A DNA stretch of 64,000 nucleotides, from NCBI RefSeq assembly GCF_003970675.1, contig NZ_CP034562.1, positions 434,001 through 498,000 on the forward strand, written 5' to 3'. Within the stretch, counting starts at the first letter, position 1, and the number at the start of each line of letters is the position of its first letter. Positions 11,743 through 52,235 of the stretch are shown here, one piece after another. The translations under genes were made by a program, and so were the position numbers. The notes under the pieces are model-generated. The model had not been told where the DNA came from. It did not search any database and saw only the letters and a list, made by a program, of their open reading frames with translations. Source of the stretch: Flammeovirga pectinis. Its GTDB lineage: Bacteria; Bacteroidota; Bacteroidia; Cytophagales; Flammeovirgaceae.

Positions 11743-14700
11743 TTACTTTATTAGAATAGAAACTGACTCAGAAAAATCATCTCCTATAATTATTAATTGA
11801 TACATACCTGTATTTAATGCTTTAGATAATTCAAAACGCTCATTAAGTTCACCCAAAGCATTTGTTTGAGTTTCTTTAGCGTACACCTCAGTACCAGAAA
11901 TATTAATTACTCGGATATATATATTTTGATTCGAAGTTAGCTCCTTCATTTTCATATCAAAAGTACCCTTTGATGGGTTAGGATAAAGTACTACTTCGCT
12001 TTCTAAACTATTTTGCTCCAAATTAATGCGAGCATTATTACCACATTCTCCAATAGTTAATTCAACCTTATCATTATTGGTGTCTTTTTGACCAACACCA
12101 TTATGCTGGTAGGTGAAATAGAATGCAACATTTTCCCCAAGATTTGACGGAAGTGTAAAAGTGAAATTTTCACCTTCTTTCTCCATGTAAAAACCTCCTG
12201 TAATGTTTCCGTCAACAAAAGTGGTAATGATAACCCATTCTGAGCTGCCTAAGATAGAAGTAGGAATAAATGTGACTGTTGGGTTATCTTGTTTCTCAAC
12301 CTCAACAGAGAAATCTCCATTATTACTATAGAATGTACAAGCAGTTGTATTTACAGCGTTTACATTTACTAGAATAGAAGTACTTTCTTCTGTTTTGCCA
12401 TCATATACAGTAAGCGAAACAGCATACTCTCCATTTTGGTAGTAATTATGAAGAGGGTTTTCAAGAGTACTTGTTGTGCCATCACCAAAGTTCCATTGGT
12501 ATGCTAATAAATCTCCATCACTATCATTAGAAAGAGAGGCGTCAAATTGATAACTCGAACCACTTTGGGTAAAGTTAATGACAGGAGTTGGGGCATTGTT
12601 TTTTCCACTTTCGCAAGTAGGGAAAATTTCAAATTCGAATAAAGAAATTCCATAAGGATGCTGTTTACTTGTTGCATACATTGCAATATATCTACCACTA
12701 CCAGATAGATTAATTAAAGAGTCAGTTCTAGCTTTATCTTCCAAACCACTCTGATCGCTAATTATTGTCCAAGTAGATGGATCGGGATCAGTGTCTTCAT
12801 CAGACATTAGAATATAATAGGCGTCTGCATTGGCTCTTTCCCAAACTAGTTTAACTGCTTCAATATCATAGTCTCTTTTTAAATCAATTTTTATCCATTG
12901 AGGAATACTGAAATTTGTAGACGACCTAGTTGTAGAATCACCATCAATTGCAAAGTCAGCATTTAGATATCCTTCAGTACTCGATTGAGTAACATCTTTC
13001 CCTATTGCAATATTAGAAGGAACGCAATTGTTTTCTTCTACATTAATAACAATTGCAGAAGATGTAGCACTTGTAATAGCATCTACTACTTTAGCTGTTA
13101 CTACATGACTACCCAAGGCAGGGTTTTCCCATAAGAATGTAAAAGGAGCAACAGTTGATGTACCAATTAAGGTTTGACCATCATAAAATTCTACCTTTTC
13201 TACCATGCCATTTTCTGATGATGCATCTACTTGCAAAACGATAGTTTCACCTTCAGAGAAAAGTTGATTGTTTTCTATTGATGTAAATGCGATAGACGGT
13301 AAAGCAAAGTAAATTCCTTTTTCTACAATAGAGATTTCTTTTTTAGTAGATATTCCAACGCCATTGGCATCAACTACTTTGGCTGAAATAGAATAGTCTC
13401 CATACCCAATGTTTTCTAAAATAAATGTATAAGGAGCTTCTGCTACTTCTCCTATTTTTTCATCGTTTAAATAATATTCTACTTTCTCTATTATTGAGTT
13501 TGGAGAATATGCATTTGATGAAATTTGTAGATTATCACCTTTTAAATATGCGATAGTATTTTCTGGTTGAGAAATAATGATATCTACAATAGGAGAGGTG
13601 ATTGTAGCAGACTCCCAATACATATTATCGAATGCAAAACTATAAATGGAATCTTTTAAAGGATCTAAAGACGAAATTAGAAATGGAGCATTTATTTGTG
13701 ATAGATCTTCAACATTAAATGCGCTAACTGGGATAATTACCTCTTCCCAATCTCCGGTTCTTTCTAATCCGTAAACATTTTCGTTGGGTTGAATTGGTAC
13801 CCAATATTCTGCAGATGTACTTGTAAAACCAACTCTTATGCCTACGTCTGTAGGTAATTTCATGTTGAATTTAATGTAGCCGTCTTTATAGTTTGATAAA
13901 TCCCATGTTTCTCTAGAATGAACTCCACCTCCATACCACGTAGAACCAACTTGGTTAGTCCATGAAATAGTATTACTACCTTCGAACGGGGTAATTGATG
14001 TTGGTGCTAAATTGTTCCATAAATAAATATCAGCATCTAAGCCCGGAGTAACTTTATTGTTCACTGCTGTTTCGTCAGTAAATACTCCAAAACGACCTTT
14101 AGCTGCAATATTTGAAGATGCTCCAGTTACGATTTCACCTTCACCATTCCATTTCGAAACTTGAATGTAATCCACATACATTTTAGCAGGTAAGGTAGCC
14201 CAAAGTTGGTCTTCTGCATGCGCATCTGTAAATACACCTCCAACAGCCATATTTAATAAGAAATAAAATGGTTTTTGGAATGTAGATGTTTCTTCTGAAA
14301 AATAATGTGGTTGCTCGAACATAAAATGCTCAACAGAGTCGTCTACAATAGATAATTTAATTGAACTAGACGACCAGTACATTCTATAGGTAACAAAACG
14401 ATCTTGTAATGTACTATCTGCAACATACGGGTTTGCGTAATTTGGATCCCATGCTGCACTTGCTGCTCCTGTTGGATTTTGTGGTGATAATGCTTGGTCT
14501 GAGTACCAAATAATATTTGATGCTACATAATTGTTAGCATCTGCATACGGAAAATTTTGTCTTGCTCTATCGTCAAAATTTTGTCCCATTTCCATCATAT
14601 CAATTTCACCAATACTAGGCCAAGTTCCAGCACCTGTTCCTAATAACCAAGCAGCAGGCCATAAGCCACCTTCAATATTAGGTGTTCTCATTCTGATTTC

Positions 14701-17700
14701 TACAACACCATATTTTACTGCAATTTTATCTTTAGAAAGCATTCTAGAAGAAGTATATGATTTACCTCCAAAGTCTTCTTTCTTGGCTTCAATAACTAAA
14801 GCAGAATTACCAACCTCATTTGGCACTTGTTCGATAGAGGCATTTTCTTCTCGATAATATTCTAATTCACCATTACCCCAGCCCCAATTGCCATTTCCTA
14901 TTTCAAATCCCCAAACAGAAGGGTCGATAGTATTAAAATCTTCTCTCCAAATTACTTCACCAATACCTTCTCCAACTACAGAAACTTGAATAGTAGATGT
15001 ACTACTAAGGTCAGTATTATCAATTGCTTTGGCAGATATTACGTGATCTCCTTCTTTAATATTATTCCATTGAATTACATAAGGAGCTTCTGTTGCAATA
15101 CCAATTAATTTAGGACCGTAGTAGAATTCTACTCTCTGGATTGTCCCATCAATATCTTCTGCGTTGGCAGCAATTGATAATGTTGATGGATTTTCTAATT
15201 CAATACCATTTGTAGGACTTGTTATTTGTACTGTTGGTGCTTCTGAAGGAAACGAGCTTGGATCCCAAACAATATCATCAACAGCCATTTCGAAAGTAGT
15301 TGCTGTACCACCTTCACCAGAAAGAATGAGGAATGGAGACGTTACTTTTTCTAGATTTATTCCATTGAAATTGCTAATAGGAATTATTGCTTCTCCCCAT
15401 TCTCCATTTCTTGTTAACCCATAAGTATCTTCATTTGCTTTAAAATCTATCCAATATTGAGTATCTGTAGTTTCAACTCCAATCTTAAAACCAACATCTG
15501 CAGGAATCTTGATTTTGAATTTTAAGCTACCTTTTCGTTTATCAGAAAGATTAATAAAATCTCTACAAGTAATACCAGCACCAAACCACCAATTAGGTTG
15601 GTTGGTTTCCCAAGCAATTACATTTGTACCTTGATAAGGTGGAGTAGTACCTCCTTTTAAAGTGTTTTCCCAAACAAAAACATCTGTATCTACACCTATT
15701 TCTAATTTACTATCAATAGAAGTATTGTCTGTAAACACCCCAAATAATCCTTCTTTTTTGTTAGATACCGTATTGCGAATTACTTCTCCGACACCATTCC
15801 ATTTTGAAACTTTTACGTAATCGATCCACATTTCTGAAGGCATATCTGCAGTAACTCCTTCTTTATTTAAGATATCAGGGAATAAACCACCAACAGCGAG
15901 ATTCATTAAGAAGTAAAATGGTTTATGAAAGGCTTCTAGCCCATCTCCACTTTCAATATTAAAAGGAGCAGGGAGTAAATCATATTCTTGACCATTATCT
16001 ATTATTGTATATCTTATTTCTTTTGGCGACCAATACATTCTATAGGTTACAAATCTATTTGCCATAGATGTTTCAGAAACATAGGGGGTAGCCGAACCTT
16101 TAAACCACGTTCCGTTAGCTGCACAAGTTGGGTTATCATCACTACACGCAGCAGCAGATTTCCAAATAATATTTGCAGCAGTATAGTTATTTACATCAGG
16201 AGTGATTGTGCTATCCTCTAGATGTTTTAACCTGTAGGCAGGGTTATGCCCCATTTCCATAATATCTAATTCACCAATACTTGGCCAACCTTGTGATCCA
16301 GTTCCTAGCATCCAGAATGCAGGCCATAAGCCACCTTCTAAATTGGGAACTTGTATTCTTGCTTCAACAACACCATATTTAATTGCTAATTTATCTTGTG
16401 TTTTAAGACGAGAAGAAGAAAAACCAAACCCTCTGATATTATCGTTTTGGGCTGTAATTACGATTGCTTTATTACTCTCTTCATTAGGTACCTCTTTAAT
16501 TGTAGAGTTCTTTTCTGTATAGTACTCTAATTCGCCATTACCCCAACCCCAGTTGCCGTTTCCTGTTTCGAATTGCCAAGTAGTTTTGTCTATTGTATCA
16601 AAATTATCTTCCCAAATAACTTCTCCAATCCCTTCATTAGAATCAGTTACTACAAAAGTAATAGGAGCAGAGATTGATGAGACTCCACTGTTATCTTCTG
16701 CTTTTGCAATAACTATATGTTCACCTGTTGGAGTATCGTTCCAAGAAATAGTAAATGGAGATGAGTTAGCTACACCAATTATTGAATCATTTACAAAATA
16801 AGTAACTGATACAACCTCTCCATCTAAATCATATGCGGAGCTTGATAATGATAAGCTAGATATATCTGAAAGTATTTGATTATTGGAAGGAGTGAGTATA
16901 CTTACTTTAGGAGCAAGTGATTTTACAGGAGTATCATCCCAATAAATATTATCGAATGCAAAGTCATAATTTCCTTTAGAACCATCTTCTGCAGCAATAG
17001 CAAAAAGATATTCTACTTGAGTAAGGTCTAACCAACCAAAATCATCAATTGGAATTACTATTTCTGCCCATTCTCCATTTCTAGTTAAGCCATAGTTATT
17101 TTGATTTGCAGGGAATGTAATCCAACTTTCGTTTGTTTTGGCGATGATCCCAACTTTAAAACCTAAACCTTCTGGTATTTTTGCATAGAATTTTAAAGAG
17201 CCATTTTGATAATCTGACATATCTTGCGGTTCTAAAGCAGCAATTCCACCACCAAACCAAGCATTTGTTGTACTTTCCCATGCTAGAGCATTTGCACCTT
17301 CAAATGGTTCTGAAGTACCTTCCTTTAAAGAGTTTTCCCAAACATAAACATTAGCATCTACGCCAACAGTAAGTCCGTTATTGATTTCATCGTCGTTTGT
17401 AAAAACAGCAAATTTACCAGTTTTACCTCCCATTCTGCCTTTAAACACTTCTCCTCTGCCATTCCATTTAGACACTTTAATATAATCAATCCACATTTCT
17501 GCAGGAGCGTCGAAATTTACATCGTTCATTGTAGCTGCATCTGTAAAATTACCTCCCACAGCCATGTTCATTAAAAAGAAGAAAGGTTTTTGGAATGCTT
17601 CTGTATCTGTACCACTTTCTAATCCGAAAGGGCTTTCGAATAAATCGTATTCTATATTATCGTCTACAATTGTAATTCTTAAAGACGATGGACTCCAATA

Positions 17701-19500
17701 CATCTTGTACTTCACAAATTTATTGGCGAGTGTAGTAGAAGAAACATAAGGTTTGCTATAGTCTACATCATAAGCAGTACTACCAGCACAAGTAGGGTTT
17801 CCTTCGCTACAAGCCGCTTCTGAGTAAAGTATAATATTCGAACCTACATAGCTATTAATTGCAGCATCAGCATGTCCTTGACGTTCTCTTTCTTCTAATT
17901 TATGTCCCATTTCCATAATGTCAATTTCACCTCTTAAAGGCCAAGATTGAGCATCTGTTCCCATCATCCAGAATGCAGGCCAAAGTGCATTACCAAGATC
18001 TGGAACTTTCATTCTTACTTCTACAACACCATATTTTACAGCAACACCATTCTCACTTACCAATCGAGAAGAGGTGTAATTAAAACCGCCTGCTTGCTCT
18101 TCTTTAGCAGTAATCACGATAGCAGTATTACCTGGTTCTTCAGGAATTTCTTTAATACTTGTATTGTTTTCTGTGTAGAACTCTAATTCCCCATTTCCCC
18201 AACCCCAAGTACCGTTTCCAGTTTCAAATTTCCATGTATTTCTATCTATAGATGTAAAGTTATCTTCCCAAATAACTTCACCTTCTCCGGATAAATCACT
18301 TACATTAAAAATAGTAGGAGCTGTTGTTTGAGTAACACCTTTATTGTCGGTAGCCTTTACTGTAATTGTATAATCTCCTGCAATAAGGTTATTCCATTCA
18401 ACAGTATAAGGAGCTGAAAGATCTTGCCCTAAAAGAGAATCACCCATAAAGAATTCTACTTTAGTAATATTCCCTAAACTAGAAGTAGCAGTAGCTTCTA
18501 AAGTAACTGAACTTGCATTTTCTATTGTATTAGAGATAGGAGAAGTAAGTGAAACTTGAGGTTTTGGAATTTCTCCTGTAAATATTTCTCCTTGGTCATT
18601 CCATTTAGATACACTGATATAATCTACCCACATTTTTGCAGGAGTAGTAATATCTATGGTAGATGTAGAGAGAGCATCTGTAAAAGTACCTCCTACAGCC
18701 ATGTTCATTAAAAAGAAAAATGGTTTCTGAAAGACTTCTGTATCTGTACCTTCTTGCAATCCAAAAGGACCTGCAAAAAGATCGTATTCTGTGCCATTAT
18801 CTTCTATAGTAATTCTAATTTCTTCAGCACTCCAATACATTCTATAAATTACAAAACGATCTGCCATTGAGGTAGTGGCAACGTATGGATTTGCATAGTT
18901 AACATCGTAAGCAGCACTACCAGCACAAGTTGGGTTTCCTTCACTACATGCATCTTTAGAATACAAAATAATATTTGATCCGACAAAGCTATTGATATCA
19001 GCACTTTCTTCGCCATGTCTTTCTCTATCTTCTAGCTTATGGCCCATTTCCATGATGTCAATTTCACCACGTAACGGCCATTGTTCTTGGTCTGTTCCCA
19101 TCATCCAGAATGCAGGCCAAAGACCGTTTCCTAGGTCGGGTACTTTCATTCTAACCTCAATTAGTCCATAACGAACAGCTAGTCCATTTATACTTTTTAA
19201 TCGAGAGGAAGTGTATTCAAAATCACCTTCGTTTTCTTTTTTTGCTTCTATTACTAGAGCATTATTGTTTGTTTCATTTGGAATTTCTTGAATACTCGTA
19301 TTCTCTTGTTTATAGAATTCGAGCTCTCCATTTCCCCATCCCCAATTGCCATTTCCGGTTTCAAATTGCCAAATGTTGGGATTGATTTCATTGAAGTCTT
19401 CCCTCCAAAGTACCTCCCCTTTTTGTGCAAAGGTAGAATTACCAATAAGCAGAAGTAGTAGTACAGAGAGTAAATTTTTAGTAATATTCATTTCAAACAT
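11743..19500 (-). CDS. Giant secreted protein with four GH16 (laminarinase-like) domains and a T9SS sorting domain
   Basis: Length of 2585 residues. Signal peptide ~1-25. GH16 catalytic domains lie at ~26-305, 405-685, 956-1240 and 1512-1792, each with an intact ExDxxE site: E146/E151, E525/E530, E1077/E1082 and E1632/E1637. Each begins with the shared block ETGNGNWGWGNGELE (the fourth varies slightly). Ig-like (Big_17-type) linkers are at ~313-400, 862-952, 1420-1508, 1970-2058 and 2066-2155. Three copies of a ~165-residue glycan-binding-like module follow GH16-2, -3 and -4 (~692-857, 1248-1414, 1800-1964). Then come an F5/8C (CBM32-like) domain ~2159-2295, PKD ~2303-2380, a possible CBM56-like beta-1,3-glucan-binding domain ~2387-2487 and a type A sorting domain 2503-2585. 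GH16 members of this type cleave beta-1,3/1,4-glucans such as laminarin; the exact substrate is inferred. An ATG at 19491 is an equally good start. Confidence 0.93.
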   Translation of the reverse strand: MFEMNITKNLLSVLLLLLIGNSTFAQKGEVLWREDFNEINPNIWQFETGNGNWGWGNGELEFYKQENTSIQEIPNETNNNALVIEAKKENEGDFEYTSSRLKSINGLAVRYGLIEVRMKVPDLGNGLWPAFWMMGTDQEQWPLRGEIDIMEMGHKLEDRERHGEESADINSFVGSNIILYSKDACSEGNPTCAGSAAYDVNYANPYVATTSMADRFVIYRMYWSAEEIRITIEDNGTEYDLFAGPFGLQEGTDTEVFQKPFFFLMNMAVGGTFTDALSTSTIDITTPAKMWVDYISVSKWNDQGEIFTGEIPKPQVSLTSPISNTIENASSVTLEATATSSLGNITKVEFFMGDSLLGQDLSAPYTVEWNNLIAGDYTITVKATDNKGVTQTTAPTIFNVSDLSGEGEVIWEDNFTSIDRNTWKFETGNGTWGWGNGELEFYTENNTSIKEIPEEPGNTAIVITAKEEQAGGFNYTSSRLVSENGVAVKYGVVEVRMKVPDLGNALWPAFWMMGTDAQSWPLRGEIDIMEMGHKLEERERQGHADAAINSYVGSNIILYSEAACSEGNPTCAGSTAYDVDYSKPYVSSTTLANKFVKYKMYWSPSSLRITIVDDNIEYDLFESPFGLESGTDTEAFQKPFFFLMNMAVGGNFTDAATMNDVNFDAPAEMWIDYIKVSKWNGRGEVFKGRMGGKTGKFAVFTNDDEINNGLTVGVDANVYVWENSLKEGTSEPFEGANALAWESTTNAWFGGGIAALEPQDMSDYQNGSLKFYAKIPEGLGFKVGIIAKTNESWITFPANQNNYGLTRNGEWAEIVIPIDDFGWLDLTQVEYLFAIAAEDGSKGNYDFAFDNIYWDDTPVKSLAPKVSILTPSNNQILSDISSLSLSSSAYDLDGEVVSVTYFVNDSIIGVANSSPFTISWNDTPTGEHIVIAKAEDNSGVSSISAPITFVVTDSNEGIGEVIWEDNFDTIDKTTWQFETGNGNWGWGNGELEYYTEKNSTIKEVPNEESNKAIVITAQNDNIRGFGFSSSRLKTQDKLAIKYGVVEARIQVPNLEGGLWPAFWMLGTGSQGWPSIGELDIMEMGHNPAYRLKHLEDSTITPDVNNYTAANIIWKSAAACSDDNPTCAANGTWFKGSATPYVSETSMANRFVTYRMYWSPKEIRYTIIDNGQEYDLLPAPFNIESGDGLEAFHKPFYFLMNLAVGGLFPDILNKEGVTADMPSEMWIDYVKVSKWNGVGEVIRNTVSNKKEGLFGVFTDNTSIDSKLEIGVDTDVFVWENTLKGGTTPPYQGTNVIAWETNQPNWWFGAGITCRDFINLSDKRKGSLKFKIKIPADVGFKIGVETTDTQYWIDFKANEDTYGLTRNGEWGEAIIPISNFNGINLEKVTSPFLILSGEGGTATTFEMAVDDIVWDPSSFPSEAPTVQITSPTNGIELENPSTLSIAANAEDIDGTIQRVEFYYGPKLIGIATEAPYVIQWNNIKEGDHVISAKAIDNTDLSSTSTIQVSVVGEGIGEVIWREDFNTIDPSVWGFEIGNGNWGWGNGELEYYREENASIEQVPNEVGNSALVIEAKKEDFGGKSYTSSRMLSKDKIAVKYGVVEIRMRTPNIEGGLWPAAWLLGTGAGTWPSIGEIDMMEMGQNFDDRARQNFPYADANNYVASNIIWYSDQALSPQNPTGAASAAWDPNYANPYVADSTLQDRFVTYRMYWSSSSIKLSIVDDSVEHFMFEQPHYFSEETSTFQKPFYFLLNMAVGGVFTDAHAEDQLWATLPAKMYVDYIQVSKWNGEGEIVTGASSNIAAKGRFGVFTDETAVNNKVTPGLDADIYLWNNLAPTSITPFEGSNTISWTNQVGSTWYGGGVHSRETWDLSNYKDGYIKFNMKLPTDVGIRVGFTSTSAEYWVPIQPNENVYGLERTGDWEEVIIPVSAFNVEDLSQINAPFLISSLDPLKDSIYSFAFDNMYWESATITSPIVDIIISQPENTIAYLKGDNLQISSNAYSPNSIIEKVEYYLNDEKIGEVAEAPYTFILENIGYGDYSISAKVVDANGVGISTKKEISIVEKGIYFALPSIAFTSIENNQLFSEGETIVLQVDASSENGMVEKVEFYDGQTLIGTSTVAPFTFLWENPALGSHVVTAKVVDAITSATSSAIVINVEENNCVPSNIAIGKDVTQSSTEGYLNADFAIDGDSTTRSSTNFSIPQWIKIDLKRDYDIEAVKLVWERANADAYYILMSDEDTDPDPSTWTIISDQSGLEDKARTDSLINLSGSGRYIAMYATSKQHPYGISLFEFEIFPTCESGKNNAPTPVINFTQSGSSYQFDASLSNDSDGDLLAYQWNFGDGTTSTLENPLHNYYQNGEYAVSLTVYDGKTEESTSILVNVNAVNTTACTFYSNNGDFSVEVEKQDNPTVTFIPTSILGSSEWVIITTFVDGNITGGFYMEKEGENFTFTLPSNLGENVAFYFTYQHNGVGQKDTNNDKVELTIGECGNNARINLEQNSLESEVVLYPNPSKGTFDMKMKELTSNQNIYIRVINISGTEVYAKETQTNALGELNERFELSKALNTGMYQLIIIGDDFSESVSILIK
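14125..19425 (-). repeat. Four diverged coding repeats of the GH16 module
   Basis: The GH16 units map to 18586-19425, 17446-18288, 15781-16635 and 14125-14967. Units 1 and 2 are the most alike (shared GEIDIMEMGHKLE, CSEGNPTCAGS, FQKPFFFLMNMAVGG). Unit 3 shares the Cys pair; unit 4 has lost it (LSPQNPTGAAS). This is consistent with stepwise tandem duplication of catalytic-plus-linker blocks and later divergence. Confidence 0.8.
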
Positions 19501-19646: not shown

Positions 19647-22613
19647 TTAAAACCTAAGTATAAGGTCATTTAGGTTTACTTGCTTTTCTAACTTCATTTT
19701 TTTTCTAATTCTATACCTACTTTGTTCTAGGCTTCCTAAGGTGATATTTAATATTTGGGCTATTTCTTTGTTCGTCTTATTCAATCTTACTAACGAACAA
19801 ATCCTTAAATCTGTAGAAGTTAGTTGAGGGTATTTCTTGGCAAAGTCAGTTAAAAAAGTATCTGTTTCTAGTTCTAATACATTATCGAAAATGGTATCAT
19901 TGTTCATGGAATTAAGGTTGTTTTTTAGTTCATTCAATTCTGATGATTGGAACTCTGTATTGTTACTCTGCGTAGTGATATCTACAATATTCTGATACAT
20001 ATGATTAAGATGTTCTTTTAATGCAGAATACTTAGTAGACATCTCATTAATTTTCTGATTGTACTCCGAGATATTTGTGTTTAATTGTTCATTTTTGAAT
20101 TGAATCAATTGGTTTTCTTCGTGTAAATCTTGAACTGCTTTTCTTTTTTCTTCAACAATTGACCTTAGCTCTTTCCTTTTAAAAATTAAGAAAAGTAAGT
20201 AGCTAAAAACAATTAACCCTATTGCAGCAAGAAGCACTTTAAATAGTAACGTATCAAAGAAACTACCTTTAACAATTATGGTAATTTCTTTTACGGCATC
20301 ACTCCAACTTCCTTTATTTGGACTGCTTTTTATTTTTAATGTATAGGTACCGATTGGAAGTTTACTAAAAGTTGCACTTCTACTTTTTCCGTCTGTTTCT
20401 ATCCATTTATTATTGTACCCTTCTAATTTATAAGCGTATTGAATGGTAAGAGGGAAATCGTAATTTATTGCCGCAAATTTCACAGTTAAAATACTTTGGT
20501 TATCAGGCAGTGAAATAGTATCAACAGTAGATAAAAGCGAAGGAATACTACTAAGTGTATCCATTGCATTCTCGTAAGCAATAGATTTATTATCTATTCG
20601 AACATCTGTTAAATATATTTTGGAGGGTTTAAAGTTTTTACTAATAAGGTTAGGGTTAAAAGAATTGATACCGTTATTACCAGCAAAAATAAATTCGCCA
20701 TTATCTATAGCTGCAGAAAGGTGAAGATTAACGCTGTAATTCTTTAATCCATAATCTTGAGAAAAGTTAGCTACTAAATCAGTTTCTGTATTTAAAACAG
20801 AGAACCCACAGGAAGTACCCACCCAAACTCTAGCTCTTTTATCAATTTGTAATGCTTGAATATCTAAACAAGAAAGTCCTTCTTCATATCCATAATGCTT
20901 TAGAATATTTTTATTCCTATCTATTTTATACAAACCATCCCCATTTGTACCTACCCAAGTATTACCAAAATGATCTTCTTTCATATCTGTTGCTACATTA
21001 ATAGGTAAACGGTTAACCTCAAAAGTAGATGTATTTATAGATACAAGTTGATCTGAAGTACCTATCCATAGTAGGTTCCTTTTATCGAAATCGAAATAAT
21101 TAATTGTACCGTGCAATTCTAAATACTTTCCATTAAATAAACTATTCCCAGAGAGCACCTCTTTTGAGTAGCCAACTGCTGATGTAGGTATACAGGCAAT
21201 TTTTTCTTTAGAATAACTAAGCCAAATATTTCCCTTTTCATCTTCTGTAATTGTAGTGATTACCCCTTTTGGTAACGCTTTATTATTCTCGGAAGCATGT
21301 CTATATTCTACTAGATTTTTATTAGTTAAAGAGTAATTAAGTAAAGTAGAATCGGTACTAACCCATAAAGTGTTTTTCGAATCTAAATAAACGGCAGAAA
21401 TAACACTAAGTGATTTACCAATGGGATATTTCGAGAATTTTTTATCTTTTTTATTGAAGAGATATAGGCCTTTAGAATAAGTACCTAAAATAAAATTATC
21501 ATTATTTACTTTAGTCATTGATGATACTCTTATTTCATTGTCATAAGCACCAATTTTCTGATATCTGAATGTGTTTTTTAGTGAATTTAATTTAAAAAGA
21601 CCATATCCAAAAGAGCCAAACCATAAGCTATTATCATTCGCACTAAAACTTGTCCAGATATAGTCATAGTTATTTTCATCCACATCATTCATCTCAACCT
21701 GCGAAAAATGGAGTGTATTTAAATCTAGAATATTAATACCATTGCCATAAGTACTTATCCAAAGTTTATCATTTTCTCTCTGTACTATTGCCTTAATAAT
21801 ATTTCCGCTTATGGTATTCGTTTTATCAATTTGATGATTAAACTGTTTTAACTCATTTCTTTTCTGATTGTACCTGTAGAGTCCATTTCCCCAAGTTCCA
21901 ATCCATATATCATTATTACTATCTTCAAAAATACAATTGATAGTACTCTTACTTAATCTTTTAAATATTTCTTCGTATTTAATAATGCTTTTCTGAGATC
22001 TAACATCTAAAACATTTAGACCTTCATTTTCAGTACCTATCCAAAGTTGGTGTTTACTATCAAGAAACATTGTATTGATAAAACGTCCCGAAACTTTATT
22101 TTTATATGGATTGATGGTGTTGAATGCTGTAAATTTTTGAGAGTGTTCATCATATTTTACTAAGCCACCATTATAAGTGCCGATCCATAAAATAGAATCA
22201 TCCTGAATAATTGACCTTATATTATCACTGCTAAGTCCGTTATCATCTTTAAAGAATTTAGTTACTTTACCAGTTTCAACTTCATATTTGTTTAGACCAT
22301 GTTCTGTTCCAAACCACATATTGTTGTCTGCATCCTCAAAAATACATTGAACTGTAGTGTGTGATAAGATATTAGCTTTTTCTTTTCCGACGGTATTAAA
22401 ATTATGGAATTCATGTCCGTCATAAATCTGTACACCACCATATGTTCCTACCCACAAGAGATTTCTACTATCTTGAAAAATTGATAAGACATGATTGTGT
22501 ATTAAACCTTCTTTTGTTTGATAGGAATCAAATTTAAAATTAGACTGTGCATTTAATAATATTGGAAACAGATAAGATAAAACGGATATAAAAAATAGAG
22601 TAGTTAATTTCAT
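19647..22613 (-). CDS. Membrane-spanning propeller sensor with C-terminal LuxR-like HTH (SusR-like regulator)
   Basis: Length of 988 residues. Signal/anchor ~1-22. About fourteen two-component-regulator propeller repeats (W(I/V)GT motifs, e.g. LLWVGTYGG, MWFGTEHGL, IWIGTWGNG) fill ~30-660, forming two seven-bladed propellers. A Y_Y_Y domain (~715-780) precedes one transmembrane segment (~787-811), a coiled coil (~812-905) and a LuxR/GerE-like HTH at the C terminus (~925-985, NKTNKEIAQILNITLGSLEQSRYRI). There is no histidine kinase or receiver domain, so it resembles SusR-type direct signalling across the inner membrane. It lies 146 bp upstream of the GH16 gene on the same strand and is the obvious candidate to sense the glucan products and switch the locus on. 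Confidence 0.88.
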   Translation of the reverse strand: MKLTTLFFISVLSYLFPILLNAQSNFKFDSYQTKEGLIHNHVLSIFQDSRNLLWVGTYGGVQIYDGHEFHNFNTVGKEKANILSHTTVQCIFEDADNNMWFGTEHGLNKYEVETGKVTKFFKDDNGLSSDNIRSIIQDDSILWIGTYNGGLVKYDEHSQKFTAFNTINPYKNKVSGRFINTMFLDSKHQLWIGTENEGLNVLDVRSQKSIIKYEEIFKRLSKSTINCIFEDSNNDIWIGTWGNGLYRYNQKRNELKQFNHQIDKTNTISGNIIKAIVQRENDKLWISTYGNGINILDLNTLHFSQVEMNDVDENNYDYIWTSFSANDNSLWFGSFGYGLFKLNSLKNTFRYQKIGAYDNEIRVSSMTKVNNDNFILGTYSKGLYLFNKKDKKFSKYPIGKSLSVISAVYLDSKNTLWVSTDSTLLNYSLTNKNLVEYRHASENNKALPKGVITTITEDEKGNIWLSYSKEKIACIPTSAVGYSKEVLSGNSLFNGKYLELHGTINYFDFDKRNLLWIGTSDQLVSINTSTFEVNRLPINVATDMKEDHFGNTWVGTNGDGLYKIDRNKNILKHYGYEEGLSCLDIQALQIDKRARVWVGTSCGFSVLNTETDLVANFSQDYGLKNYSVNLHLSAAIDNGEFIFAGNNGINSFNPNLISKNFKPSKIYLTDVRIDNKSIAYENAMDTLSSIPSLLSTVDTISLPDNQSILTVKFAAINYDFPLTIQYAYKLEGYNNKWIETDGKSRSATFSKLPIGTYTLKIKSSPNKGSWSDAVKEITIIVKGSFFDTLLFKVLLAAIGLIVFSYLLFLIFKRKELRSIVEEKRKAVQDLHEENQLIQFKNEQLNTNISEYNQKINEMSTKYSALKEHLNHMYQNIVDITTQSNNTEFQSSELNELKNNLNSMNNDTIFDNVLELETDTFLTDFAKKYPQLTSTDLRICSLVRLNKTNKEIAQILNITLGSLEQSRYRIRKKMKLEKQVNLNDLILRF

Positions 22614-27220: not shown

Positions 27221-27925
27221 TTATGATAAAGGATCACTTGGAATAAATTCATTGCCTTCGTTCTTAAAATACTTTGTAGGTATTTCATTACGTTTTTTGA
27301 TGTAAGTAGCATACTCACCTTCAAAATCAACGCGCTTATCAATCGTTTCATCAAAACGATCGAGTAAACAAAGAACAACCTCAGATACTTCTCTTACAGC
27401 ATTATTAGAACCAGAATTACCCGTTATGTAGTCAGTATGTCCATTCATTCTACAATATTCTGTAAATAAAGGGCTACCTGAACGTCCTACCATAAAACGA
27501 GCACCAACTTCTTTTGCTAAGGAGATATCTAAAATATCATCGAAAGTAAAAAGTATTTCTTTAGCTTTTACACCAGACATTTCGTCTACAAGAGGCAATA
27601 CTTTTACTTTATCTTTTACAAGATAAACAACAGCATCAAAATGTTCCCTTTTGGCCCATTTAAAAGCAGCTTCATTAAATTCTCCAGTTACAACTGCTGT
27701 AAATGGAATTTCTCCGTTTTCTAAGAAATAACCAAATCGAAGCATGTTTACACCCATAGAGTCAACTTCGCTAAATGGACTTGGCATAGCACCGCCTTTT
27801 ACACCACCATTAAAAACGCCATCCCAGTCAAAAATTAGACCTTTAACATTTTGTAATTGCTGTAAAAGAGAAGAGGAGGGTGTTACAAACACGCCTCCTC
27901 CTTCTTTGAATAATTCTTCTCTCAT
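27221..27925 (-). CDS. KdsC-like HAD phosphatase (Kdo-8-phosphate phosphatase candidate)
   Basis: Length of 234 residues versus ~170-190 for usual KdsC, with ~30 extra N-terminal and ~40 extra C-terminal residues. HAD motifs: I DWDGVF (D33, D35), II AVVTGE, III KDKVKVL, IV FDDILD. The order and the C-terminal NNAVREVSEVVL mirror KdsC (GAVREV). Usual KdsC consensus pieces ITGR and GDDxND are changed here to VTGE and FDDILD. It lies 10 bp after the transaldolase-CBS gene and is the last gene of the kdsB-kdsA operon. Context makes dephosphorylation of Kdo-8-P the best guess, with substrate details possibly altered. Confidence 0.75.
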   Translation of the reverse strand: MREELFKEGGGVFVTPSSSLLQQLQNVKGLIFDWDGVFNGGVKGGAMPSPFSEVDSMGVNMLRFGYFLENGEIPFTAVVTGEFNEAAFKWAKREHFDAVVYLVKDKVKVLPLVDEMSGVKAKEILFTFDDILDISLAKEVGARFMVGRSGSPLFTEYCRMNGHTDYITGNSGSNNAVREVSEVVLCLLDRFDETIDKRVDFEGEYATYIKKRNEIPTKYFKNEGNEFIPSDPLS

Positions 27926-27935
27926 TAGAGTGAAA

Positions 27936-28952
27936 TTAGAATTTCATCATATCTTGAACGTCCAACATACCGATTACTTTACCGTTTTGAGTAACAACCA
28001 GTTCGTCAACTTTCTTTTCTTTGATTAAATTCGAAGCAACAAATAATAATTCATTAGCGTCGATTGAAATAGGAGCAGTTAATCCTAAATCACCTACTTT
28101 AGTGTTCACAACGTCTCCACCTTTTTCAGATACTAAACGACGTAAATCACCATCAGTAAAGATACCAATAGCAACACCGTTAGCGTCTACTACAGTAGTA
28201 GCACCAGTTGCATTAGTAGTCATGTTAACAAGACATTCAGCAACAGTAGCATCAGCAGTAACAGTAGGGTTGTTAGTAGAGATAGCCTCACCAACTTTAA
28301 CTGTCATTAAACGAGTATCATTAACGAATTGATCTGTACCAATTTTTGTAAAGTGGTTTTCAGTCAATTGAGTCATGATTTTCCAAGGTACAGTAATTGT
28401 GTGAACACCAATACTTACAGCATCACGAACGTGTTGCATTGTACGTACAGATGAGAACATAATTTTAGTATTGTAACCGTAGTATTCTACAGCTTCAACA
28501 CATTGCTCTACTAAACCTAAAGCATCGTGACCTTGATCTTGTAAACGACCAACAAGAGGACAAACATAAGTTGCTCCAGCTTGCATAGCCATATATGCTT
28601 GTTGTAAAGTATATACCAAGTGAATGTTCACTTTGAAACCTTCTTTTACAAGCATGCTACAAGCTTTAAGACCTACCATAGAAACAGGGATCTTATAAAC
28701 TGTAGTTTCACGGCTTAAGCCTAAAGCTTCTTGACGTTTTGCTTCTGCAACGATTTCCTCTGCAGTGTCTCCTAATGCTTCAATTTGAAGAACAGGTACA
28801 ATTTTAGACAACTCAACAATTGTTCCGTCGATATCAGTGATACCATGACGAGCCATGAATGTTGGAGTAGTTGTTAAACCAGTCATGAACGGTGCTTGTT
28901 CAAAACCATTTTTGATCTCATTGATCTCTGCAGAGTCTAAATATAATTCCAT
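27936..28952 (-). CDS. Transaldolase (TalC/FSA-type) fused to a CBS-domain pair, in the Kdo operon
   Basis: Length of 338 residues. Residues 1-~215 are a small-type transaldolase / fructose-6-phosphate-aldolase barrel: MELYLDSAEI, TGLTTTPTF, the Schiff-base lysine in VYKIPVS (K87), AGATYVCPLVGR, IMFSSVRT and HTITVPWKIM. Residues ~217-338 form two CBS motifs, including GIFTDGDLRRL and a terminal VIGMLDVQDMMKF. These closely match the CBS tail of KdsD arabinose-5-phosphate isomerase (GIFTDGDLRR is a hallmark), but the isomerase SIS domain is absent. FSA-type enzymes can join glycolaldehyde and glyceraldehyde-3-phosphate into arabinose-5-phosphate, the substrate that leads to Kdo. Sitting between kdsA (55 bp) and the KdsC-like gene (10 bp), it may replace KdsD. 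The fusion is seen; the function is inferred. Confidence 0.85.
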   Translation of the reverse strand: MELYLDSAEINEIKNGFEQAPFMTGLTTTPTFMARHGITDIDGTIVELSKIVPVLQIEALGDTAEEIVAEAKRQEALGLSRETTVYKIPVSMVGLKACSMLVKEGFKVNIHLVYTLQQAYMAMQAGATYVCPLVGRLQDQGHDALGLVEQCVEAVEYYGYNTKIMFSSVRTMQHVRDAVSIGVHTITVPWKIMTQLTENHFTKIGTDQFVNDTRLMTVKVGEAISTNNPTVTADATVAECLVNMTTNATGATTVVDANGVAIGIFTDGDLRRLVSEKGGDVVNTKVGDLGLTAPISIDANELLFVASNLIKEKKVDELVVTQNGKVIGMLDVQDMMKF

Positions 28953-29007: not shown

Positions 29008-29844
29008 TTACTTGTTACGGTAACTAACTTCGATATTGTGTAATTCGATTAGCGGTTTCATGAACTCTTCTAATTGATTTACATCTAATTGACTTGCCGC
29101 ATCGCAAAGTGCTTCTGACGGACAAGGGTGTGTTTCGATAAATAAACCATCGATACCTGCAGCCACACCAGCACGAGCTAATGTTGGTAAGTATTGACGA
29201 GCTCCACCTGTAGGATCCGCAGAAGGAATTCCATATTTACGGATTGAGTGCGTTACGTCAAATACAATTGGGTATCCAGTTTGTCTCATTTCGTAGAAAG
29301 AACGAGGATCAACAATTAAATCATTGTAACCAAAAGAATAACCTCTTTCTGTTAAAATGATATTTTTGTTACCAGTTGATTCAACTTTTTGAGCTGGTTT
29401 AATCATGTTCTCAGGAGCTAAGAACTGACCGTGTTTTATGTTTACAACTTTACCTGTTTCAGCAGAACCAACAACAAGGTCAGTTTGCATACATAAGTAA
29501 GCTGGAATTTGAAGAATATCTAATACTTCAGCAGCAGGTTTGATCTGGTCTGGGTAATGGATGTCAGAAACTAAAGAGAATCCGAATTCATCTTTTACCT
29601 TTTGCATGATACGTAAACCTTCCTCGATACCAGGACCTCTATAAAAGTCTACTGAAGATCTGTTATCTTTTTGAAAAGAAGCTTTATAAATCATCGGAAT
29701 ATTTAACCTTTCCGTAACTTCTTTCAATTTTTCTGCTGTTTTCATCATGATGCTCTCGTCCTCGATTACACAAGGTCCAGAGATCAGGAACAATTCGTCA
29801 GCGCCACAATTAATGTCACCAACTTTTACAATGTTTTTACTCAT
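29008..29844 (-). CDS. kdsA: 3-deoxy-8-phosphooctulonate (Kdo-8-P) synthase
   Basis: About 278 residues from the ATG at 29844 (MSKNIVKVGDINCG); an upstream in-frame ATG at 29880 adds 12 unconserved residues. It condenses arabinose-5-phosphate with phosphoenolpyruvate. DAHP/Kdo8P synthase motifs: LISGPCVIEDE, YKASFQKDNRSS, GPGIEEGL, DIHYPDQ, IPAYLCMQTDL, NIKHGQFLAPENM, FDVTHSIRKYG and GLFIETHPCPSEAL. Asn in KHGQF.. with Cys-free metal position suggests the metal question (metal-dependent or not) cannot be settled by eye. Second gene of the kdsB-kdsA-transaldolase-KdsC-like operon. Confidence 0.95.
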   Translation of the reverse strand: MSKNIVKVGDINCGADELFLISGPCVIEDESIMMKTAEKLKEVTERLNIPMIYKASFQKDNRSSVDFYRGPGIEEGLRIMQKVKDEFGFSLVSDIHYPDQIKPAAEVLDILQIPAYLCMQTDLVVGSAETGKVVNIKHGQFLAPENMIKPAQKVESTGNKNIILTERGYSFGYNDLIVDPRSFYEMRQTGYPIVFDVTHSIRKYGIPSADPTGGARQYLPTLARAGVAAGIDGLFIETHPCPSEALCDAASQLDVNQLEEFMKPLIELHNIEVSYRNK

Positions 29845-29963
29845 CTGTATTTTATTGCTTTTGTATTGGGGGGATGTCAAAAAGAGACAGTTTCTCCAAC
29901 GATGCGCAATTTAGTTTATTTTTGCTAGAACGACCAATGATTAACGTTAGCTATTTGTAAATA

Positions 29964-30719
29964 TTAGACTAACTCTTGCATAATATTTCTTACACGCTCT
30001 AAATCTTCTTTAGTATCTACAGGAATACTGTCGTGTTCTGTAATACCAACCTTAATTTTATAACCATGTTCGATCCATCGTAGTTGCTCTAACGATTCTA
30101 ATTTCTCTAAAGTTGTTGGCTCAAGAGTTGAGAAAAGTGAAAGTGCCTTTTTTGTATAGGCATATAATCCAAGGTGTTTATAAAATGTAGTGTGTTTCAT
30201 CCAATCTTTACGATCAATTCCTCGAACAGTTGGAATCACAGCTCTACTAAAATATAAAGCATCTTTATTATGATCTAGAGTGACAAATACTTCACTATCA
30301 TTTTCTAAATCTTGTGCATGAATTACTGGTGTTACCAAAGTGGCAAATTCAGTAGTATCATCAAAACTATTGATTAACTCCGTTAGTGTAACTGGTTCAA
30401 GTAGAGGTTCGTCTCCTTGAATGTTTACAACGGTATCAAAGTTTTTATTTGTCTCTTTATTTACAAGCTCTAAGGCTTCTAAACAGCGTGTAGTACCATT
30501 TGTATGAGTAGGGGATGTCATCACAACATTACCACCAAAAGCTTCGACTACTTCTATAATTCGAATGTCATCTGTTGCAATATACACATCATCTATTGCT
30601 TGAATGGCACGTTCATAAACGTGTTGAATCATTGGCTTGCCACATATATCAGCCAATGGTTTTCCTTCCAATCTAGACGATCCATAGCGAGCAGGAATAA
30701 TTCCTAAAAACTTCCGCAT
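29964..30719 (-). CDS. kdsB: CMP-Kdo synthetase (3-deoxy-manno-octulosonate cytidylyltransferase)
   Basis: Length of 251 residues. It activates Kdo with CTP for transfer to lipid A. The N-terminal nucleotide-binding signature IIPARYGSSRLEGKPL, followed by GKPMIQHVYERA, VVMTSPTHTNGT, VVNIQGDEPLL and LYFSRAVIP, is standard for KdsB. First gene of the Kdo operon; the next gene, kdsA, follows after ~120 bp. The transferase that uses the product, waaA, is at 50991-52235. Confidence 0.96.
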   Translation of the reverse strand: MRKFLGIIPARYGSSRLEGKPLADICGKPMIQHVYERAIQAIDDVYIATDDIRIIEVVEAFGGNVVMTSPTHTNGTTRCLEALELVNKETNKNFDTVVNIQGDEPLLEPVTLTELINSFDDTTEFATLVTPVIHAQDLENDSEVFVTLDHNKDALYFSRAVIPTVRGIDRKDWMKHTTFYKHLGLYAYTKKALSLFSTLEPTTLEKLESLEQLRWIEHGYKIKVGITEHDSIPVDTKEDLERVRNIMQELV

Positions 30720-36401: not shown

Positions 36402-37070
36402 TTATTTTCTAAGAAGAAGAGCTTTTTTTAATAATTGCTCATCTTCAGCAAGTTTTTTAAGCATAATGTCAGCTTTAAGCTTACCATTTGATAAGTAAGG
36501 ATCATCCTTTTCCCATTCAAGTCTAAACAACCTTCCCTTAGATGTTTTACTAATACCAATTACCCTAGTAAGTGGGGCTTGGATAGGAATGTTATAGAAA
36601 GCAATCTGCCTGTCAAAATCTCTTGATAAAACTTGTTTCTCAAAGGCTTCTTTCATGCTTCTTGCTGTCGTTTTTAAATCAACAACAACTTCACCTTCTA
36701 TAAATAAGTCAGGTTTTGCTTTACAGTCTAAACCTGTTATTGGATCTTTCCAAAATACGCATTTTTCAATTTGTACATTGGGGTGTGCTAACATTTCTTT
36801 TAGTAAAGGGTAATTTCTAGCCGTAGCAGCAATTCGTCCAATTCTATTTGCTTGTGCAACAGGAACTTTTTTACTCATCTCTACCCAATCATGAGGTTCA
36901 AGAATGGCAGAATGTAGCATTGTACCTTCTCTCAGTGCTTTTTTTGGAGTGTGCGGTTGCTGACCGAGCAACAGGAGCTGAGCGTTTTTTATATCTGTAT
37001 TGGCAAGAGCAGGATGATTTCTATATTCTTTTTCATCCATGTCAATAACCTCGTAGGAAATGTTTGACAT
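36402..37070 (-). CDS. RecE-like PD-(D/E)XK nuclease (DUF3799 type), orphan
   Basis: Length of 222 residues. The sequence follows the C-terminal nuclease domain of phage RecE/exonuclease VIII: EGTMLHSAILEP (H53), an acidic position in IEKCVFWKDPITGLDCKAKPD (E102, D121) and VVVDLKTT (D131, K133), then a helix with Q155 and Y159 (RQIAFYN). These are the expected PD-(D/E)XK metal-binding and catalytic positions, so an active Mg-dependent exonuclease is plausible. RecE usually comes with the annealing protein RecT in prophages. No RecT and no phage genes are present here, so this is either a domesticated remnant or a stand-alone host nuclease. Confidence 0.8.
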   Translation of the reverse strand: MSNISYEVIDMDEKEYRNHPALANTDIKNAQLLLLGQQPHTPKKALREGTMLHSAILEPHDWVEMSKKVPVAQANRIGRIAATARNYPLLKEMLAHPNVQIEKCVFWKDPITGLDCKAKPDLFIEGEVVVDLKTTARSMKEAFEKQVLSRDFDRQIAFYNIPIQAPLTRVIGISKTSKGRLFRLEWEKDDPYLSNGKLKADIMLKKLAEDEQLLKKALLLRK

Positions 37071-50990: not shown

Positions 50991-52235
50991 TTAAAGTAAC
51001 TCTTTACAATAGGATAAGATTTTATCTGTACTACCTAAGTTTTCTCTCACAAATTCTTTTGTAATGTTACCAGTTTTATTTCTAAAATTAGTATTGTCAA
51101 ATAGCTTTTTAATAATTGATAAACAGCTACTTGCGTCTTTTATAGAGAATGTTCCTTCTCTTTCTACTAATTGTACAGCTTCAATAAATTTACTGTATTC
51201 TTTACCAATAACAACAGGAATTCCGAAAGTTGCAGGTTCAAGAATATTATGAAGTCCTTCTCCAAAAGCACCACCAACGTAAGCAAAATCTGCGAATTGA
51301 TATAGAGATGACAACATGCCTACATTATCAATTATAAGTAAGTTTTTATCTGCGATATTCTGTTCAGTAGCTTCAGAAAAGCGAATACTATTTCTAGTAG
51401 AAAATGTAGAGGTAATAAAATCTATTTTTTTATCAGAAATTTCGTGTGGAGCAACTATAATTTTTAATTCAGGAAGGTTACTTGCAACAAGGCTTAGGGC
51501 TGAGATGTCTCTAGGCCAGCTGCTTCCAACAACAAGAACTGTTGCTTTTTCTGAAAATTTCTGAGCTATAGGAATTTGTTTTGGGGAAGCACAAATTTGA
51601 GCAACTCTATCAAAACGAGTATCACCAGCAATAATTTTATTATTAATGTTTATGGAGGATAAGAGATCAAAGGAGTTTTTATCTTGTGTAAAAAAATAAT
51701 CGAACTGTTTCAACATATTTTGCTGAAAACCTCCGTTACTTTTAAAGAATGCTTGATTTGCACGAAATATAGTAGAGAATGAGATTATTTTGGCACCGAT
51801 AGTTTTTAATGCTACAAGGTAGTTATGCCAAAACTCGTATTTAACAAAGAATGCAATTTGAGGGTTGATTGTCTTTACAAACAATTCTGCATTGCTTTTG
51901 GTATCTAGAGGGAGATAGTAAATATAATCTGCATGCTCATAATTATTTTGAACTGTATATCCACTTGGGGAGAAAAAGGTAAGTACAATTTTGTACGCCG
52001 GAAATTGTACTTTGAAGGCTTCAATTACTGGTCGACCCTGCTCAAATTCCCCTAAAGAAGCACAGTGAAACCATGCTATTTCCTGATTGTTGTTTTTAAA
52101 ATCAGTTTGAATTTTTGATAATAATTGGTGTCTTCCATCTACAAATAACTTTGCTTTTGGGTTTAGCAGAGAGGCAAATTTCATTGCACCACTAAACATG
52201 TATGTACCTATATTATATATCTTTTCTTGAATCAT
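50991..52235 (-). CDS. waaA: 3-deoxy-D-manno-octulosonic acid (Kdo) transferase
   Basis: Length of 414 residues, GT-B fold, family GT30 type. The N-terminal membrane-associated start (IYNIGTYMFSGAMKFA) leads to WFHCASLGEFEQGRPV with its catalytic-type Glu, FAYVGGAFGEGLHNILEPA, VVGSSWPRD and VVIGKEYSKFIEA. It transfers Kdo from CMP-Kdo (made by KdsB, gene at 29964-30719) to lipid A precursor at the inner membrane. Number of residues added cannot be told. Followed upstream on the same strand by an ECF sigma gene (90 bp). Confidence 0.92.
   Translation of the reverse strand: MIQEKIYNIGTYMFSGAMKFASLLNPKAKLFVDGRHQLLSKIQTDFKNNNQEIAWFHCASLGEFEQGRPVIEAFKVQFPAYKIVLTFFSPSGYTVQNNYEHADYIYYLPLDTKSNAELFVKTINPQIAFFVKYEFWHNYLVALKTIGAKIISFSTIFRANQAFFKSNGGFQQNMLKQFDYFFTQDKNSFDLLSSININNKIIAGDTRFDRVAQICASPKQIPIAQKFSEKATVLVVGSSWPRDISALSLVASNLPELKIIVAPHEISDKKIDFITSTFSTRNSIRFSEATEQNIADKNLLIIDNVGMLSSLYQFADFAYVGGAFGEGLHNILEPATFGIPVVIGKEYSKFIEAVQLVEREGTFSIKDASSCLSIIKKLFDNTNFRNKTGNITKEFVRENLGSTDKILSYCKELL

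Follow-up and report, generated by a model that had tools for sequence, protein, structure and literature searches.

A transaldolase-fold protein fused to a CBS pair as a probable substitute for KdsD in Kdo synthesis of Flammeovirga pectinis and other Bacteroidota

Gram-negative outer membranes contain Kdo as a conserved component, and the first step of its synthesis has been attributed to SIS-domain isomerases. These enzymes (KdsD/KpsF/GutQ, TIGR00393) convert ribulose 5-phosphate to arabinose 5-phosphate (A5P), the usual aldose phosphate substrate of the KDO8P synthase KdsA (TIGR01362). In a 64,000-nucleotide stretch of the Flammeovirga pectinis chromosome (the window), a minus-strand gene at 27936-28952 encodes a 338-aa protein with an ATG start and both Pfam and NCBIfam matches, which resembles two described families but scores below the model cut-offs of both. 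It shares with KdsD/KpsF/GutQ its apparent place in the pathway and a related CBS pair with the TDGDLRR motif, but it has no SIS domain and its catalytic part is unrelated in sequence. With the TalC/FSA family (PF00923; B. subtilis TAL 3r8r, T. maritima 1vpx, E. coli FsaA 1l6w) it shares the fold, the Schiff-base lysine, Asp6 and the aligned Arg and Ser, whereas six substitutions, an insertion, the CBS pair and sub-cut-off model scores set it apart. No description of a transaldolase-CBS protein, or of a KdsD substitute in this group, was found in searches of open papers; the earlier note on this DNA likewise knew of no description of the fusion. The diverged barrel is here named TAL*. We put the probability at roughly three in four that TAL* supplies KdsA with its aldose phosphate, normally A5P, thereby replacing SIS-type KdsD in Kdo synthesis.

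The barrel occupies residues 1-214 (28311-28952, minus strand), with residues 3-202 matched by Pfam TAL_FSA (E 4.6e-32). Its K87 (codon at 28692-28694, minus strand) aligned with the Schiff-base lysine K85 of E. coli FsaA. An AlphaFold2 model had a mean pLDDT of 90.8 and a pTM of 0.72, and its best Foldseek matches were B. subtilis and T. maritima TAL. Against the NCBIfam model fsa_talC_mipB (TIGR00875) the fusion scored 158 bits, below the cut-off of 245.95, and phage copies of TAL* likewise fell below this cut-off. The CBS pair comprises residues 217-338 (27936-28304 with the stop codon, minus strand); Pfam CBS matched in two stretches (E 6.4e-15) and GIFTDGDLRR lies at residues 263-272. The KpsF/KdsD models matched residues 216-337 only, TIGR00393 giving 65.2 bits against a cut-off of 203.7 bits, and Pfam and NCBIfam searches revealed no SIS isomerase domain in the fusion. 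The TalC/FSA-type barrel, its lysine K87 and the two CBS motifs reported in the earlier note were thus all recovered.

Full-length relatives of the fusion were present in 4 of 247 sampled genomes of the phylum, including its own (G000, G146, G091 and G190), and 80 loci (L078-L157) were kept from 489 relatives found in genome_contigs, indicating that the fusion is not a chance open reading frame. The closest loci were from Flammeovirga (86-88% identical). The patterns used to find the loci were MELYLDSA and QQAYMAM, and the altered active-site positions discussed below lie outside both. A search of the plasmid collection gave TalC/FSA-type partial matches only, none of which reached 80% query coverage.

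The fusion is the third of four minus-strand genes in the order kdsB, kdsA, fusion, KdsC-like gene, separated by 83, 55 and 10 bp. The kdsB gene (29964-30719), encoding CMP-Kdo synthetase, scored 223.3 bits with TIGR00466 (cut-off 155.2). The kdsA gene (29008-29880; its true start may be 29844) scored 341.2 bits with TIGR01362 (cut-off 314) and encodes a variant, KdsA*, that is likely to use the product of the fusion. Downstream, the gene at 27221-27925 encodes a KdsC-like HAD-type phosphatase with weak KdsC-type NCBIfam matches and no match in a Pfam search. Its aligned HAD residues D33, D35, K106, D129 and D130 are conserved, and 97% or more of 61 relatives retain the residues that match E. 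coli KdsC D32, D34, K102, D125 and D126. The open reading frame map and the NCBIfam matches therefore agree with the placement, given in the earlier note, between kdsA and a KdsC-like gene. A waaA/kdtA-type Kdo transferase gene (50991-52235, minus strand) lies in the same window, unlinked to the operon.

Much of this arrangement recurred in other genomes. A kdsA gene was found within 2.5 kb upstream of the fusion in 44 of the 65 loci with that much flank and was not seen there in the other 21; a KdsC-like gene followed within 2.5 kb downstream in 50/70 loci with that flank, and one or the other was present in 48 of the 59 loci with both flanks. All four fusion genomes of the phylum draw had kdsA over the cut-off, in G190 on a different contig from the fusion, and a waaA-type N-terminal domain was detected in 8/8 fusion genomes tested. 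Canonical KdsC scored above its cut-off in G146 and G190, and none did so in G000 and G091.

Other genes of the window were also inspected. The product of 11743-19500 is a secreted protein of 2585 aa that carries Ig and PKD domains plus a secretion tail; by eye, four repeated segments with GEIDIMEMG, GELDIMEMG or GEIDMMEMG looked laminarinase/agarase-like, and a Pfam search of the protein gave no GH16 match. Next to it, 19647-22613 encodes a two-component-type sensor with a propeller, a Y_Y_Y domain and a weak LuxR-type DNA-binding match at its end, in which Pfam detected no kinase domain. A lone 222-aa PDDEXK-like protein (DUF3799), of a kind frequent in phages, is encoded at 36402-37070.

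The genome of F. pectinis (6.68 Mb in 3 contigs, complete and rated 100%) contained no KdsD above the TIGR00393 cut-off. A SIS family search of the whole genome gave four matches, none of them KdsD: two in one 623-aa frame, which is GlmS-like as judged by size and layout, one in GmhA and one in MurQ, the last two passing their own cut-offs. The same search showed no hidden short KdsD. The earlier note had regarded a SIS-domain kdsD elsewhere in the genome as fatal to its proposal, and none was found.

The fusion might instead be an ordinary transaldolase or a regulator, with A5P coming for example from the isomerase domain of GlmS or from GmhA, since GlmS-like and GmhA proteins are both present in this genome. 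Against GlmS as the source, an E. coli API mutant is auxotrophic although E. coli has GlmS. GlmS is nevertheless a possible hidden source because eukaryotic GFAT can make A5P, human and yeast GFAT having rescued an E. coli API mutant according to the excerpt of PMC11301363. An ordinary transaldolase as the sole role of the fusion was rejected, as a separate TalC with normal residues is encoded in the same genome (G000:C1:1813729) and the site of the fusion differs. This alternative, which also leaves the KdsD exclusion, the phage pairing and the altered site described below unexplained, was considered very unlikely.

The distribution of KdsD fits its replacement by TAL*. In the phylum draw, KdsD over the cut-off was found in none of the four fusion genomes and in 21/21 other genomes tested beside them. 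Among the genomes of the kept loci, it was present in 3/50 of one batch (G269, G287 and G288) and 1/30 of a second (G315), and a further genome of this kind, G313, had a KdsD fragment under the cut-off. In total, full-length KdsD was present in 4 of 84 fusion genomes and missing from 80, whereas 54 of 57 genomes of the same class without the fusion, a set that includes its own order, possessed it (exceptions G041, G230 and G238). This near exclusion, which bears on the Cytophagales tally proposed in the earlier note, gave a Fisher p of 2.8e-30, a value that ignores kinship and the differing sources of the samples. Incompleteness of metagenome-assembled genomes was rejected as the cause, because it cannot give 80/84 and the four fusion genomes of the phylum draw were each rated 100% complete.

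Two families contained both states: in f2, G146 (fusion, no KdsD) contrasted with G049, G076, G111, G186 and G194, and in f6, G091 (fusion, no KdsD) with G007, G017, G033, G115, G126 and G150. This implies repeated replacement or loss, or else transfer of the operon from one lineage to another. Across the whole phylum draw, KdsD scored over the TIGR00393 cut-off in 176/247 genomes. Of the 243 genomes of the draw without the fusion, 67 also had no KdsD above the cut-off, 64 of these belonging to other classes, so other solutions exist, such as short KdsD; the Bacteroides control also scored below this cut-off. In the genomes with both fusion and full KdsD, inspection by eye placed KdsD beside tatC-like frames in G269 (L163) and G287 (L164) and beside a mannose-1-phosphate guanylyltransferase-like frame in G288 (L165); G315 corresponds to locus L220.

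The CBS pair of the fusion matched the KpsF/KdsD models and the solved KdsD CBS pairs 4o9k, 3fna and 3k2v. It joined KdsD CBS against two-CBS proteins in one tree (support 99/98) and grouped with KdsD CBS in a second (90/87), there together with one nucleotidyltransferase-type CBS bearing TDGDIRR. Since the latter carries the TDGD-RR motif, this motif is not peculiar to KdsD. In both trees the fusion formed a sister group of KdsD CBS, with long stems and long-branch warnings, and a recent domain swap, with the fusion CBS nested in Bacteroidota KdsD, was unsupported. A KdsD-like CBS tail, as the earlier note had it, therefore stands as far as likely kinship is concerned, but the tail is neither nested in Bacteroidota KdsD nor marked by a KdsD-specific motif. 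By analogy with the role assumed for the CBS pair of KdsD, it is probably a regulatory sensor.

The active sites of 84 fusions and three phage copies were aligned with those of 29 TalC/FSA proteins from the loci and E. coli FsaA. D6, K85, R134 and S166 (FSA numbers, the last two being R136 and S168 of the fusion) were kept in 87/87 TAL*, and all carried E at FSA Q59 (E58 in the fusion). The substitutions N28T, S30T, T109H, A/S129C, F/Y131L and A165S were likewise present in 87/87. A two-residue insertion, G78-L79, is a further difference from the family. In fusion numbering the signature reads T29, H111 (codon at 28620-28622, minus strand), C131 and L133. According to the excerpt of PMC13259622, Asp6 and Asn28 are the donor determinants of FSA and the catalytic water is held at Q59-T109-Y131. 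From the triad Q/E59-T109-Y/F131 and the donor residue N28, TAL* keeps E58 and has changed the other three.

These replacements weigh against the plain FSA chemistry proposed in the earlier note, in which a K87 enamine of glycolaldehyde adds to glyceraldehyde 3-phosphate to give A5P. FsaA does catalyse this reaction in vitro (excerpts of PMC6298115 and PMC9947464), and K87, D6, R136 and S168 are invariant in TAL*; however, N28, T109, A/S129 and F/Y131, which include the donor and water residues named in the PMC13259622 excerpt, are all replaced. The supply of glycolaldehyde raises further doubt, because an FSA-based A5P shunt was estimated to work only above 1 mM glycolaldehyde in the chloroplast design excerpted from PMC6298115, where the reduction of glycolate to glycolaldehyde is described as not known in nature. 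The same excerpt gives a Km of 0.2 mM and a kcat of 16 per s for the FSA condensation of glycolaldehyde, which counts against epimerase chemistry. On balance we regard a plain A5P aldolase as unlikely.

An isomerase acting on ribulose 5-phosphate, with E58 and H111 as enediol bases and K87 as electrophile, would perform the same reaction as KdsD, and the new conserved His sits at the former catalytic-water threonine. From a Schiff base at the C2 ketone, however, an aldose cannot be freed directly. K87 would then have to serve another function, which sits badly with its invariance. We know of no isomerase in the transaldolase family, and we rate this reading as improbable as plain aldol addition.

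Over these two we tentatively favour a Schiff-base C2 epimerisation of ribose 5-phosphate. The kept Schiff-base lysine and the changed donor site suggest another carbonyl partner. K87 would form a Schiff base with C1 of ribose 5-phosphate, C2 would be inverted either by the E58/H111 pair or by a retro-aldol/aldol step, and A5P would then be released. We know of no C2 epimerase of transaldolase fold, which counts against this chemistry. A mechanistic analogue is L-ribulose-5-phosphate 4-epimerase, which has an aldolase-derived fold and epimerises by retro-aldol/aldol; it differs in having a class II metal aldolase fold and in acting on another carbon. In the excerpt of PMC9947464, the TalB F178Y variant made both A5P and ribose 5-phosphate from glycolaldehyde and glyceraldehyde 3-phosphate. 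The transaldolase fold can thus set C2 either way, and such an enzyme running backwards and then forwards would be a ribose-5-phosphate epimerase.

TAL* also occurred without its CBS pair. Two scans of viral_contigs returned the same three records (L158/L182, L159/L183 and L160/L184), each with a 213-aa stand-alone TAL* (65-67% identical) and each classed as phage by IMG/VR plus a few PHROG matches. In a tree TAL* formed one clade on a long stem (support 100/100), with the phage copies within. All three records contained kdsA. In two of them kdsA begins at the final base of the stop codon of TAL*, a one-base overlap; the third, a 35.6-kb contig, has kdsB, kdsA and TAL* all on the same strand. 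The KdsA of the third record scored 352.8 bits; the two adjoining KdsA gave 232.8-239.6 bits with KDO8P synthase models, under the cut-off of 314, and a DAHP-synthase reading of them was rejected at 55-66 bits. Phages rarely carry kdsA: 14 of 50,697 INPHARED records matched, four at 35% identity or more. An INPHARED search with phage TAL* found 505 records, all below 60% identity, and one match that was inspected, S-B64, had the ordinary TalC motif.

KdsA was recovered with more than 180 aligned residues at 54 places in fusion genomes (the window, 50 of the 80 loci, L006, L007 and L073). In 54/54 the changes A61D, F117Y, R120M, K139H and Q205R (E. coli numbers) were present, whereas 12/12 other KdsA had A61, F117, R120 (K in two), K139 and Q205. 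The latter were from E. coli, six KdsD genomes, two other phages and the three TAL* phages; the canonical Bacteroidota set is limited to six genomes because only 3 of 20 19.5-kb pieces around KdsD held kdsA. Compared with described KDO8P synthases, KdsA* passes the TIGR01362 cut-off and keeps K60, N62, R63 and H202, but differs by F54Y in addition to the five changes above. We take R120 and the neighbouring altered positions to be active-site residues. The changes mark the clade and may reflect compensation, channelling or another substrate.

The last possibility would amount to a variant pathway, in which TAL* makes a different aldose phosphate and KdsA* condenses it with PEP to a Kdo analogue. 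The clade-specific KdsA changes speak for it, as does a phosphatase that is KdsC-like rather than KdsC. However, KdsA* and KdsB both score above the equivalog cut-offs for Kdo enzymes, the four residues K60, N62, R63 and H202 are kept, and phage TAL* is paired with KdsA of the unchanged type (A61, F117, K139, Q205 and R or K at 120). We hold such a pathway to be a poor candidate. A5P was retained as the most probable product of TAL* mainly because the TAL* phages carry unchanged-type KdsA.

Replacement of KdsD by TAL* is supported by the gene order, the absence of KdsD, the near exclusion, the phage pairing of TAL* with kdsA and the conserved new active site; it was the central proposal of the earlier note, and the missing KdsD of the F. 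pectinis genome, the near exclusion and the phage pairing all back it. Against it stand the presence of KdsD in 4/84 fusion genomes, the changes of KdsA*, which could mean another substrate, the 67 genomes of the draw with neither fusion nor KdsD over the cut-off, the 21/65 loci in which kdsA was not seen close upstream, and GlmS as a possible source of A5P. A wider reading is decidedly more doubtful, namely that TAL* is a new activity, a Schiff-base C2 epimerase from ribose 5-phosphate to A5P, which across a wide range of Bacteroidota has ousted KdsD alongside a re-modelled KdsA, and whose gene phages acquired as a stand-alone member of a Kdo gene set. Should A5P be the product of TAL*, an essential precursor would be made in a large group of bacteria by an enzyme unrelated to KdsD. 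The transaldolase fold would then have a further activity, recognisable by the conserved signature T29, H111, C131 and L133, and the Kdo genes of the phages would have a complete supply line. Pipelines for annotation, which name the fusion a transaldolase, would overlook the pathway, and inhibitors directed at KdsD would miss the organisms that carry the fusion.
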